Assembly: GCA_913053845.1 (NCBI GenBank)
Contig: CAJXGD010000026.1
Coordinates: forward strand, 1 to 33,253
Reading direction: 5' to 3'
Origin: an uncultured bacterium
GTDB lineage: Bacteria > Bipolaricaulota > Bipolaricaulia > RBG-16-55-9 > DRJF01
Length of the DNA: 33,253 nt
Shown: piece by piece, positions 11,882-28,771 of the stretch
Layout: each line of letters begins with the position of its first letter
Numbering within the stretch: the stretch's first letter is position 1
Notes under the pieces: model-generated
The model's input: only the letters and a program-made list of their open reading frames with translations
The model's database searches: none
What the model was told of the DNA's origin: nothing
Made by a program: the position numbers and the translations under genes

Positions 11882-11957
11882 CGAAGAACCAGTATGGAGA
11901 GGGGGGAGAAACCAGGTTGTGAAGCTTACGAATAAGACGACAACCTCCTTGAAGAGA

Positions 11958-12093
11958 GAAGAGCTTGGCCGTGGCAGGGCGGCCACCGAAGGTGGATAAC
12001 CTCCACCGGCTGCCAGGGTTTTGCCCACCGTGGGGTGGGATTTTTCCCCAGCAGCTTTGAGGACGCGGTTCGAATCCGTAGGCCAAGCTCTTC
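11958..12093 (+). ncRNA. Candidate structured RNA with tRNA-like features
   Basis: Within the 471-base gene-free gap 11766-12236, a perfect 13-bp pair, GAAGAGCTTGGCC (11958-11970) with GGCCAAGCTCTTC (12081-12093), closes a 136-base domain. Inside are a TGGCAGGGCGGC segment close to a tRNA D-arm box, a 5-bp stem with 7-base loop (GGTGG/CCACC, 11991-12007), further G/C hairpins, and a T-arm-like GGTTCGAATCC (12067-12077) placed just before the 3' strand of the closing helix, as in tRNA and tmRNA. No complete tRNA, tmRNA, SRP or RNase P pattern fits. The strand is uncertain: the T-arm favours plus, but a good promoter (12130-12158) would read the minus strand. Open frames here look like by-products of the folding sequence. 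Confidence 0.45.
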
Positions 12094-12100
12094 CACACTT

Positions 12101-12121
12101 TGCCGGCCGCTCCGGCCGGCA
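12101..12121. repeat. 8-bp perfect hairpin beside the structured element
   Basis: TGCCGGCC and GGCCGGCA flank the 5-base loop GCTCC. There is no real T tract on either side, so it is a poor intrinsic terminator. On the minus strand it would be the first hairpin of a transcript from the 12130-12158 promoter. Confidence 0.5.
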
Positions 12122-12129
12122 AGCACTTT

Positions 12130-25225: not shown

Positions 25226-25949
25226 GGAGCAGCCGTTGGACAGTCTCTGCCAGTTGGGCCGGATCGTCCACGATCCAGCCTTCATCCAGCAACCTCCCTC
25301 GGTGCAGGGCCGCGCGGGTGAAATCTGTGGCTACAGCGATACAGCGCATCCCGGCGGCCAGTGCCGCCTGCACCCCGGCGGGCGAATCCTCGATCACCAG
25401 GCATTGGCCGGGTACAAGCTCCAGCTCCTCGGCCACCAGTTGATAGATCTCCGGATCGGGCTTGCCCTGCTCCACATCGTCGCGGGAGGCCACGACGTCG
25501 AAGGCATCGGTCAGGTGCAAGATCTGCAACACCCGCCGCACCTGGGGACAGTAAGACATGGTGGCTAAAGCGGTCTGACAACCGTTTTGCCGGGCTTTTT
25601 GGAGCAACTCGACGGTGTGCGGCCACTGGTTGGCGCGCAGGACCGCCGGATCGGCCAACATCTGTTGATAAATGCCCAGACGCACTTGGACGAGCGCCTG
25701 CCAGGGAGCGCTCACGCCAAACTCCTTCATGCGTGCGCCGGCCGCCTGAGTCAGTCCGAATTTTCTCATCAAGGTGATGGCCACCTCGCGGCGCGAGCGG
25801 CCGACGACCTCCTTAAAAGCCTCGATCACCTGTTCCAGCAAGAGCCCTTGGGAAGAGAGCTCCACCGCGGCGCGGGCGTAGGAGAGTGCTTTCAGCTTCT
25901 CTGTCTGGACCAGCGTGCCGTCCAGGTCGAAGATCATGGCGCGAATCAT
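25212..25949 (-). CDS. HAD-superfamily sugar-phosphatase-like hydrolase
   Basis: 245 residues of the beta-phosphoglucomutase/GS1-like HAD subfamily. Motif I is FDLDGTLV (D8 nucleophile, D10 acid/base), with a helical cap at about 18-85. Motif II is the LATMSY region, motif III GKPDPEIY, and motif IV VIEDSPAGVQAA. Such enzymes dephosphorylate or isomerise sugar phosphates. The start overlaps the tal-pgi stop (ATGA). The operon suggests a substrate among the pentose phosphate or trehalose intermediates, but the exact one cannot be told. Confidence 0.88.
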   Translation of the reverse strand: MIRAMIFDLDGTLVQTEKLKALSYARAAVELSSQGLLLEQVIEAFKEVVGRSRREVAITLMRKFGLTQAAGARMKEFGVSAPWQALVQVRLGIYQQMLADPAVLRANQWPHTVELLQKARQNGCQTALATMSYCPQVRRVLQILHLTDAFDVVASRDDVEQGKPDPEIYQLVAEELELVPGQCLVIEDSPAGVQAALAAGMRCIAVATDFTRAALHRGRLLDEGWIVDDPAQLAETVQRLLHERS

Positions 25950-28771
25950 GGTATAGCCTCCTCCAAGCGCTTCAGCCCGCCAATTATATCCTGACCCAGC
26001 TCGAAGCGAATCACCCGTCGCCCGGCGTCCAGCAGCGCCTGGCGGTCTCCCAACGATTGCGCGGCCTTGAGCAGGCCGAAGCTGAGCGACGAAGACGATG
26101 ACCCGGCCTCGTCAGGTATCGGCAAATCCTGTGGGCTCTGGGAGACTATCTGGATGAAGAGGCCCCTGCCCCCGTCGCCCTTATGCAACTGGCCGGTGGA
26201 GTGCAGGAAGCGCGGCCCGTAGCCCACCGTCGTGGCCAGCTTCAGCCGGTCGCGCAACTGGGTCCGTAATCGTTGCAGCGCGGCGCTGGTCTCCTCGGTT
26301 GGCTGAAGGTAGGCTTGCAGGGCAATATAATCACCCGGCTTGGCCCGCTCCAGAAAGGCGCTCAGTGCATCTTGTAGGCTAGCGACCCTCATGTCAGTGT
26401 ACACGCTGATCTCCCCAGCCTGCAGCGCGGGCGTTAGCGTGGGCAATGTGCCCTTTTCCTGATATGTTGCGACCATCTGACGGGCCAGCACCTTGGCCGC
26501 CTCCACGTTCGGTTGATCGAAAGGGTTGATCCCCAAGATGTGCCCGGCCACCGCTGTAGCCATCTCCCAGAGGAAGAACTGTCCACCCAGGTCATAGAGA
26601 TCGCGCAGATTGAGCCGCAGGACCGGCTGACCGGCCTGGATGAGGGCGCTCACGACCGCATCGTACGTCTCATCACCCTCCAGGCGCAGATAGACGAAGA
26701 GCCGGTCATCGCCATAGACGTCAGGCGCTCCCAGGGGCTCATCGGCTACCGGCAAGATGCCCTGGCCCTCCTTGCCGGTGCTCTCAGCGATCAACTGCTC
26801 CGCCCAGGCGCCGTATGCCGCTATCGGCGGCGAGGCGATCAGGGTCAGCTTGTCTCTCCCGCTCTTGTCCAGGGCGCCCAGCGCCACACCCAACCGCGCG
26901 CCGGCGTTGTCACCCTCGATGGGGCAGTTGCAAGCTTCGCAGTTGCAGGCGGCCGTCAGCGCCCGATCGAGCAATTTTTCCAGCTCGACGCCGACCAGCG
27001 CTGCCGGGACCAGCCCAAAATAAGAGAGCGCCGAGTAGCGCCCGCCGATATTGGGATCATTAAGAAATATCTCGCGAAACTTATAGCGCTCGGCCAGCTC
27101 GATCAGGGGACTGCCGGGATCGGTGATGGCGATGAAATGCTCGCCGGCCCGATCGGGGCCCAGAACCTCGGCCACCCGGTTATAAAAGAACTTGAAGAAC
27201 GAGAGAGTCTCTATCGTGGTGCCCGACTTGGTGGAGACGATGAACAGGGTTTTCTTCAAGTCCAACCGCTCGGCCTGGTCCAGAATAGCGCCGGGATCGG
27301 TGCTATCCAGCACGGCAAGATCCAGTCGGGGCGCGTCGCGTCGTGCTCTTGCCTCCGGCCCGAAGACCTGACTGAAAAGTTCCGGCGCCAGACTGGAGCC
27401 GCCCATGCCCAGCAGCAGCGCCTGGCCATAGCCGGCCTGATGAACCGCGCGGGCGAGCTGCTCGAGACGGGGCAACTGTGCGGCCATGGCTTGGGCGATA
27501 TTCAGCCAGCCGAGCCGATTGCTGATCTCGGCCGGCTCCGGCTTCCAGACGGTGTAATCATGAGCCCAGATGCGGCCTATCACCCGGTCGGCCTTCAGCC
27601 GGGCCAGGGCTCGGTCAAACACCCCTTGATCATTGCTGAGGCTGGCTTTGAGTGCTCGCCGACCCGATTGCAGCCAATGGCGTTTTCCCGCGATGCTGAC
27701 TCTGAGGCTCTCGAACGACTTGGCAAAGGACTCTACGCCTTGGGCTTGCAGCTCCTGAGTGATCTTCTCCAGATCAATGCCCAGCTCAGTCAACTGGGCC
27801 AAGCGGGCTTGGGCTTCGGTTAAACCTTGGGTGAGCGTCTCGCGCACCGTGCCGTGATCCAGAAAGGCGCTGAGCGTAGCCGGGGGAACGGTATTGACCG
27901 TGTCGGGGCCGATCAGTTGGTCCAGATAGAGCGTATCCGGATAGTCATGATTCTTGGTGCTGGTGCTGGCCCAGAGGGGCCGTTGCACCCGGGCGCCCTG
28001 GGCAGCGAGTCCCCCCCAACGTGAGCCGGAGAATATCTCTTGAAAGCGCCGATAGGCCAGCTTGACATTGGCAATGGCAATTTTCCCCTGTAGGGGCACG
28101 GCGCGCCGTGCCCCTACACCATCCAGAGCATCTAGAACCCGATCCACCGCCGTATCCACCCGGCTGACGAAAAACGAGGCCACCGAGGCGACCTGATGCA
28201 AATCGCCTCCGGCAGCGGCCAGCGCTGCCAGGCCATCCAGATAGGCCTGGGCGGCGGCCTCATACTGCTCCAGCGAAAAGATCAGGGTCACATTGACATT
28301 GATGCCCTCGCCGATCAGTTGGGCAATCGCCGGGATGCCCTCCGGCGTGGCCGGCACCTTAATCATCAGGTTAGGCCGATTCAGCGCTGCGAAGAGCCGT
28401 CGGGCTTCATCCAGAGTGCCGGCGGTGTCACGGGCCAGCTCCGGGCTGACCTCTAAACTCACGTAGCCATCGAGCTTATCTGTCACCTGATAGACCGGGA
28501 GTAGCAGGTCGGCCGCCTGGCCGATGTCCTCGAAGACCAAGGCTTCATATATCTCTTCCACCGACTTGCCGGCGGCGACGAGCCTTCGCAGCTCCTCGTC
28601 GTAGTCGGCGCTGCCGGCGATGGCTTTTTCCAAGATCGAGGGGTTGGAGGTCACCCCGCGCACTCCGAGCGCGATCAGCTTGGCCAGCTCTCCCGATGTT
28701 ATAAACGAGCGACGGATATAATCGTACCAGACCGCTTGGCCCAGTTGGGCCAAATCGTTCAAATTGGTCAT
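25946..28771 (-). CDS. tal-pgi: Bifunctional transaldolase / glucose-6-phosphate isomerase
   Basis: A 941-residue fusion. Residues 1-~365 are transaldolase: TSNPSILEKAI (41-51), Schiff-base Lys138 in NLMIKVPAT, and SFFVSRVD (199-206). Residues ~375-941 are phosphoglucose isomerase: MGGSSLAPELF, STKSGTTIETLSFF, and the signature DPNIGGRYSALSYFG. The enzyme would convert sedoheptulose 7-phosphate plus glyceraldehyde 3-phosphate to fructose 6-phosphate and isomerise that to glucose 6-phosphate, recycling carbon to Zwf. Similar fusions are known, for example in Gluconobacter. Residues about 217-228 are encoded by a palindromic repeat inserted in frame. GAGGAG lies 6 bases before the ATG. It is the first gene of the minus-strand run. 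Confidence 0.95.
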   Translation of the reverse strand: MTNLNDLAQLGQAVWYDYIRRSFITSGELAKLIALGVRGVTSNPSILEKAIAGSADYDEELRRLVAAGKSVEEIYEALVFEDIGQAADLLLPVYQVTDKLDGYVSLEVSPELARDTAGTLDEARRLFAALNRPNLMIKVPATPEGIPAIAQLIGEGINVNVTLIFSLEQYEAAAQAYLDGLAALAAAGGDLHQVASVASFFVSRVDTAVDRVLDALDGVGARRAVPLQGKIAIANVKLAYRRFQEIFSGSRWGGLAAQGARVQRPLWASTSTKNHDYPDTLYLDQLIGPDTVNTVPPATLSAFLDHGTVRETLTQGLTEAQARLAQLTELGIDLEKITQELQAQGVESFAKSFESLRVSIAGKRHWLQSGRRALKASLSNDQGVFDRALARLKADRVIGRIWAHDYTVWKPEPAEISNRLGWLNIAQAMAAQLPRLEQLARAVHQAGYGQALLLGMGGSSLAPELFSQVFGPEARARRDAPRLDLAVLDSTDPGAILDQAERLDLKKTLFIVSTKSGTTIETLSFFKFFYNRVAEVLGPDRAGEHFIAITDPGSPLIELAERYKFREIFLNDPNIGGRYSALSYFGLVPAALVGVELEKLLDRALTAACNCEACNCPIEGDNAGARLGVALGALDKSGRDKLTLIASPPIAAYGAWAEQLIAESTGKEGQGILPVADEPLGAPDVYGDDRLFVYLRLEGDETYDAVVSALIQAGQPVLRLNLRDLYDLGGQFFLWEMATAVAGHILGINPFDQPNVEAAKVLARQMVATYQEKGTLPTLTPALQAGEISVYTDMRVASLQDALSAFLERAKPGDYIALQAYLQPTEETSAALQRLRTQLRDRLKLATTVGYGPRFLHSTGQLHKGDGGRGLFIQIVSQSPQDLPIPDEAGSSSSSLSFGLLKAAQSLGDRQALLDAGRRVIRFELGQDIIGGLKRLEEAIP
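28089..28118. repeat. Palindromic element inserted in the transaldolase coding sequence, copy 2
   Basis: A perfect 30-bp palindrome, TGTAGGGGCACGGCG followed by its complement, read in frame as a Gly/Ala/Arg-rich peptide between DRVLDAL and GKIAIANVK of the transaldolase domain. The GTAGGGGC and GCCCCTAC arms match copy 1 at 21729. The rest of tal-pgi is undisturbed. Confidence 0.75.

Follow-up and report, generated by a model that had tools for sequence, protein, structure and literature searches.

The stretch of DNA analyzed here, called the window, comprises positions 1 to 33,253 of contig CAJXGD010000026.1 (GenBank assembly GCA_913053845.1) from an uncultured bacterium (GTDB lineage Bacteria; Bipolaricaulota; Bipolaricaulia; RBG-16-55-9; DRJF01), and its positions 11958-12093 on the plus strand form a structured RNA element that appears to be a member of a new, previously uncatalogued RNA family of the Bipolaricaulota (Acetothermia/OP1). 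RNAs of this family carry a copy of the anti-Shine-Dalgarno (anti-SD) sequence of 16S rRNA, and we propose, with a probability of about one half, that they may act in trans on translation initiation. The initial annotation, made from the sequence alone, had described a 136-base element with a perfect 13-bp helix, D-arm-like and 5-bp/7-base hairpins and a T-arm-like end, and this layout agrees with both sequence and fold. Its description of a structured RNA with tRNA/tmRNA-like topology and of no known class also held, given the strong covariation reported below and the lack of an Rfam match; the tRNA-like hairpins are best kept in phylum-wide copies. What it had overlooked were the anti-SD element at 11943-11950 and the paralogues.

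The decisive argument for an RNA structure is covariation, as obtained from comparative sequence analysis. The best conserved part of the element is the core arm P4, which consists of an outer stem, a bulged C, an A.A mismatch, a GGG/CCC stem, a U-rich internal loop (UUUUG versus AUUUUU), an inner stem whose sequence changes freely, and an apical loop. When 46 distinct arms were aligned by sequence, 92.3% of the P4 cells were paired as compared to 68.9 ± 1.2 in shuffles, 154 double-change cells were counted as compared to 41.7 ± 6.5, and slid controls were only 34-56% paired. RNAalifold recovered the same P4 structure unaided. In several copies GGG/CCC is replaced by GAG/CUC, and at loci L036, L046 and L050 the G and A beside the U-rich loop are swapped to A and G. 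The closing helix P1 covaries as well, with 15 double-change cells versus 6.1 ± 2.0 in 14 copies, and homologues with compensatory changes, for which the initial annotation had suggested a comparison, are present in the window's genome and in all genomes of the order. Also, the window element folds far better than dinucleotide-preserving shuffles (z = -5.1 for the plus and -7.1 for the minus strand), with none of 200 shuffles equalling it on either strand. In the computed fold the anticodon-arm-like hairpin P3 has one extra closing A-U pair, and its 7-base loop is not retained in most window-like copies.

A DNA search in the window's own genome revealed three diverged relatives with 72-86% identity over parts of the element, and a DNA search for homologues gave matches in 16 of 60 genomes. 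A covariance model built from 14 copies (R1) matched all 19 genomes of the order, at one to eight places each, and none of 81 genomes from other orders of the class at E ≤ 1e-4. The exact core pattern was found in 37 stretches of a collection of 84,980 species, all of them titled Candidatus Bipolaricaulota or Acetothermia. With a covariance model of the core arm alone (R2), 3-11 copies per genome were detected in all 19 genomes of the order, including seven in the window's genome. Copies within one genome are strongly diverged, and several classes of copies keep their position beside the same genes in different genera. The genes flanking the copies have diverse functions and are oriented either way, with divergent as well as convergent pairs among them, and a cis-acting leader was rejected on these grounds. 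The copies at L073 and L077 are convergent with the gene of RsmA/KsgA, which methylates the 16S helix next to the anti-SD tail. A minimal form of 88 nt (L068/L088) consists of a promoter, P1, P4 and a U-run after P1.

The transcribed strand, which the initial annotation had left open, can now be assigned. A G-U wobble on one strand is an A-C mismatch on the other, and P4 without its outermost pair, read as plus, contains 33 G-U versus 3 A-C cells; in P1, scored without favouring either strand, the bias is weaker (44 G-U versus 29 A-C). An automated scan found three terminators on the plus strand (L062, L103 and L110) and none on the minus strand, and intrinsic terminators on the plus strand were recognized by eye at L079, L019, L068 and L126. 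Plus-strand promoters of the type TTGACA-17/18-TATAAT precede L073, L077 and L114, and a TATAAT lies nearer upstream on the plus strand at L068, L088, L109, L079 and L080. The wobble bias, the terminators and the promoters of several copies show, at the level of sequence signals, that the RNA strand is the plus strand. The good promoter that had been claimed for the minus strand of the window element could not be recovered, as a consensus scan found none on either strand and a looser scan gave near-equal scores (9.0 for plus, 8.5 for minus).

A relative of the window element, termed class C, is a mostly single-copy tRNA-like RNA. Judged by conservation it is longer, about 300-400 nt in this order, and at nine loci of the order it is located downstream of a gene for a response regulator. 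The class C copy of the window's genome (G000:C1:62669-62817; L105, L147, L207) has this position, as in other genera of the order, and its anticodon-like loop differs (CCAACAG). A class C covariance model (R3) had matches in every one of the nine families sampled, amounting to 56 out of 100 genomes from the phylum. Outside the order its E-values reached 1e-24, and it matched the window element at E = 1.7e-11; the model was built from CCUCCU-bearing RNAs, which favours such matches, the motif making up 6 of its 149 positions. The parts kept across seven families are an acceptor-like AGUCC/GGGC stem, a D-like hairpin with GG in the loop in most cases, a T-arm with UUCGAAU, and an anticodon-like hairpin GGG-UUUACAR-CCC, with UUCAUAG in one family. 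In the class C helices 47 double-change cells were counted versus 18.7 ± 3.4, and both D- and T-arm covary; the acceptor-like pairs are invariant and hence show no covariation. No CCA follows the acceptor-like stem, which makes aminoacylation unlikely. The arm loop holds CCUCCU without exception in an alignment of 18 class C RNAs that represent seven families. One family lacks the U-rich loop and retains CCUCCU, indicating that the anti-SD loop is the more basic feature. The family has expanded within this order into several diverged classes and is related to a phylum-wide tRNA-like RNA. From this distribution we infer that the window type descends from class C and is not its sister from a shared ancestor.

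The 16S rRNA of the window's genome has the 3' end GCTGGATCACCTCCTTT with the terminal letters ATCACCTCCTTT. A CCUCC identical to this tail is near-universal in the family. It occupies the apical loop of the big arm or, as is the case in the window, is contained in ACCUCCUU shortly upstream of the closing helix; some copies have both. Most window-like copies carry ACCTCCTT just 5' of P1, and in many of them it is extended to ATCACCTCCTT, which agrees with the 16S end over 11 bases. Where the apical loop is large, it usually contains CCTCC. Among 75 copies, 34 have ACCTCCTT within the 90 nt upstream of the arm (0.05 in shuffles, 0 in a control region farther 5'), and 41 have CCTCC in the apical loop (8.3 ± 2.6 in shuffles, with a maximum of 17 in 2000); these counts are not independent because the copies are related by descent. 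CCTCC is also common within 90 nt on the 3' side (49 of 75), but ACCTCCT is rare there (6 of 75). When distinct loops are considered, 52 of 56 have at least one CCUCC site, and the two sites tend to substitute for each other (Fisher p = 0.011). The CCUCC in the loop is predicted to be unpaired with a value of 0.84, versus 0.41 for the whole RNA, and the 5' CCUCC, at 0.49, is less clear than the loop motif. A masking of the 5' CCUCC by 12055-12063 (CTTTGAGGA, nine pairs with 11946-11954) was rejected as a general feature, being confined to some window-like copies.

From its sequence features, the RNA would act in trans, its tRNA-like scaffold presenting an anti-SD sequence to mRNA start regions and thereby regulating translation initiation, and we consider this reading about 50% probable. 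CCUCC(UU) would pair with the SD sequences of mRNAs, the tRNA-like scaffold and the closing helix may stabilize the RNA or dock it on the translation machinery, and the diverged copies might differ in expression or in targets. Computed pairing energies for perfect partners of 8 to 11 bases range from -11 to -17 kcal/mol, and by a rough count 19 of 30 genes of the window have SD-like sequences. A bolder version, in which a tRNA-derived RNA reads whole start regions, with the arm loop as the 16S anti-SD CCUCCU and the anticodon-like loop recognizing start codons, seems improbable to us; that loop offers CAU (for AUG) in one family and UAC (by wobble for GUG) in most others.

Several points weigh against the proposed trans-acting function. 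Since most SD sequences could pair with CCUCC by itself, specificity would be unexplained. Neither CCUCC site is present in 4 of the 56 distinct loops, among them L106, which has CCUCC across the stem-loop boundary, and for the window copy itself a partial pairing of the 5' CCUCC is predicted. Short variants at L027 and L132 (genomes G008 and G010) have P1 and the T-arm-like hairpin and are devoid of the long arm. Second class C-like copies at L225 and L226 (genomes G050 and G058), both from one family, have T-arm and D-like hairpins and a different acceptor (CACGUGCCC/GGGGCACGUG), lack CCUCC, and possibly represent another paralogue family. With regard to transcription, promoter scores show a modest contrast overall, with means of 7.8 for the plus strand, 4.8 for the minus strand and 6.0 and 6.4 for outward controls, and L056, L003, L045 and L049 have good sigma-70-type promoters (TTGACA...) reading into the minus strand, so that antisense transcripts are possible there.

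We rank as the main rival, and consider unlikely, that the RNA is a decoy of the 16S 3' tail which copies AUCACCUCCUU and, instead of pairing with mRNA, titrates a protein recognizing the 16S end (Era, IF3 or a small-subunit protein), thereby linking ribosome maturation or hibernation to the level of the RNA. Era binds a stretch of the 16S 3' tail, the motif stands beside stable helices as the 16S tail does, and in many window-like copies the match extends over 11 bases (ATCACCTCCTT) and thus beyond the 5-base core. However, in class C and in loop-type copies conservation is limited to CCUCC(U), and the bases next to it vary (AACCUCCUU, GCCUCCUU, CCCUCCUG), a pattern more in line with pairing than with a protein that recognizes a longer stretch.

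Rather doubtful is a protein-binding scaffold that would act through the tRNA-like fold or the U-rich loop, with CCUCC being kept for an intra- or intermolecular contact, for example with an AGGG that is invariant in class C and lies close to its 3' end. In class C, CCUCCU and the 3' stretch GGGC(G/A)AGGGAAACC are indeed both invariant and partly complementary, and the UUUUG/AUUUUU loop, almost invariant in the order, resembles the U-rich loops of elements for nuclear expression (ENEs). Covariation between CCUCCU and the 3' stretch was not seen, though, paralogues without GAGGGAAACC retain CCUCC, and CCUCCU stays in the family devoid of the U-rich loop.

It is very improbable that the copies are old insertions of a palindromic mobile element, like a miniature inverted-repeat transposable element or an enterobacterial repetitive intergenic consensus sequence, with the 13-bp helix as terminal inverted repeat. 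Several copies per genome lie between genes of any orientation and many have perfect inverted ends, but the copies are few (3-11) and strongly diverged, for several classes the neighbouring genes are the same in different genera, the stems covary with wobbles following one strand, copies have their own promoters and terminators, and class C mostly occurs once per genome in the phylum. Equally remote is a minus-strand transcript in the form of an mRNA leader with AAGGAGGT as ribosome-binding site; the flank reads AAGGAGGTGATG on the minus strand in several copies, the minus fold is slightly better and a few copies have TTGACA/TATAAT promoters into that strand, but the P4 wobbles, the terminators and the minimal forms favour the plus strand, many copies, including that of the window, have no downstream gene on the minus strand, and no conserved reading frame was seen by eye after AAGGAGGT.

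Comparison with known RNA classes was carried out with ARAGORN and Rfam (4227 families), as the initial annotation had suggested, and gave no match for the window element. Rfam gave no match for class C loci either, and among these ARAGORN called only L213, as 'tRNA-???' with the anticodon cctc, which Rfam does not confirm. A tRNA was ruled out, since neither a tRNA covariance model nor ARAGORN matched in the window. The family resembles tRNA (RF00005) in its D-like hairpin, its anticodon-like hairpin (7-base loop, U at position 33), its T-arm (UUCGAAU) and, in class C, an acceptor-like stem beside the T-arm; it differs by extra closing helices, a giant variable arm and the missing CCA end, and in the window type the anticodon-like loop is not kept and the 13-bp helix replaces the acceptor. 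Like transfer-messenger RNA (tmRNA; RF00023), it is a longer RNA with a tRNA-like end, but no tag reading frame was recognized, RF00023 matched neither the window nor class C loci, and an ordinary tmRNA is encoded elsewhere in these genomes (in G000 at C3:4125-4498). RNase P RNA was rejected, as RF00010 did not match at the element and a regular RNase P RNA is present elsewhere in 12 of 13 genomes. A phage origin was discarded, the core pattern being absent from viral contigs.

ENEs are eukaryotic and viral elements with a U-rich internal loop, and they share with the present family two U-rich strands flanked by G-C pairs; they differ in that the Bipolaricaulota family is bacterial and lacks the U-rich loop in part. 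No conserved A-rich partner for the loop was seen by eye in the element or its near flanks, and an ENE-like triple helix was not favoured on this ground, although such a partner might be supplied in trans. The closest functional parallel would be the alpha-r14 ('cuckoo') RNAs of alpha-proteobacteria, such as NfeR1, in which an ultraconserved anti-SD CCUCCUCCC lies in unpaired regions and the stems are variable (PMC10746234). The Bipolaricaulota family likewise has a conserved anti-SD motif in unpaired regions. However, alpha-r14 RNAs have three hairpins, each with CCUCCUCCC, and no tRNA-like core, an architecture not found in the Bipolaricaulota family, which comes from another phylum and shows no sequence or Rfam match to them; its RNAs have a closing helix, hairpins resembling the D-, anticodon- and T-arms of tRNA, an internal loop rich in U and, as a rule, one or two CCUCC sites.

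The features of the window element are listed in Table 1. The neighbouring genes, which are on the plus strand, encode an O6-methylguanine-DNA methyltransferase on one side and a beta-ketoacyl synthase on the other. Just 3' of the RNA, at 12100-12127, a strong GC palindrome (GCCGGCCGCTCCGGCCGGC) with no clear U-run may be a weak terminator. Elsewhere in the window, positions 25946-28771 (minus strand) contain an open reading frame of 941 amino acids with a transaldolase domain followed by a partial phosphoglucose isomerase domain, apparently a fused carbohydrate enzyme.

Table 1. Parts of the structured RNA element and its 5' flank in the window.
Feature	Position	Strand	Basis
Anti-SD-like motif ACCTCCTT	11943..11950	+	shortly 5' of closing helix; equals 16S rRNA 3' tail
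P1 closing helix, 5' strand GAAGAGCTTGGCC	11958..11970	+	fold; P1 covariation in 14 copies
P2, D-arm-like hairpin GTGGC-AGGGCG-GCCAC	11971..11986	+	fold; D-like hairpin covaries in class C relatives
P3, 5-bp/7-base anticodon-arm-like hairpin GGTGG-ATAACCT-CCACC	11991..12007	+	sequence; class C equivalent GGG-UUUACAR-CCC
P4, long core arm	12008..12056	+	92.3% paired, 154 double-change cells in 46 copies; RNAalifold concurs
P4 outer stem	12008-12013/12051-12056	+	covariation of 46 arms
P4 GGG/CCC	12016-12018/12047-12049	+	covariation of 46 arms
U-rich internal loop, 5' half UUUUG	12019..12023	+	almost invariant in 46 copies
P4 inner stem	12024-12029/12034-12039	+	covariation of 46 arms
U-rich internal loop, 3' half AUUUUUC	12040..12046	+	almost invariant in 46 copies
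P5, T-arm-like hairpin GCGG-TTCGAAT-CCGT	12065..12079	+	directly before closing strand; T-arm covaries in class C
P1 closing helix, 3' strand GGCCAAGCTCTTC	12081..12093	+	perfect 13-bp pairing with 11958-11970; covariation

A search limited to open-access papers gave none that links Bipolaricaulota with non-coding RNA, which is not proof of novelty, and the family is ready for a new RNA-family entry. To our knowledge, few non-coding RNAs are conserved throughout an entire phylum, and those that are often turn out to be central to translation or RNA processing. Here, in a little-studied phylum, a tRNA-like core is joined to an invariant copy of the sequence with which the ribosome selects mRNAs. 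The mode of action would appear to be a variation on that of known anti-SD RNAs. This would change if the anticodon-like loop recognized start codons in addition; in that case, the RNA would be a mimic of both the 16S tail and the initiator tRNA and a phylum-wide initiation regulator with no counterpart elsewhere. If the proposed pairing with SD sequences is true, Bipolaricaulota would possess a group of anti-SD RNAs that evolved independently of alpha-r14, and whose role in the control of translation initiation is testable.
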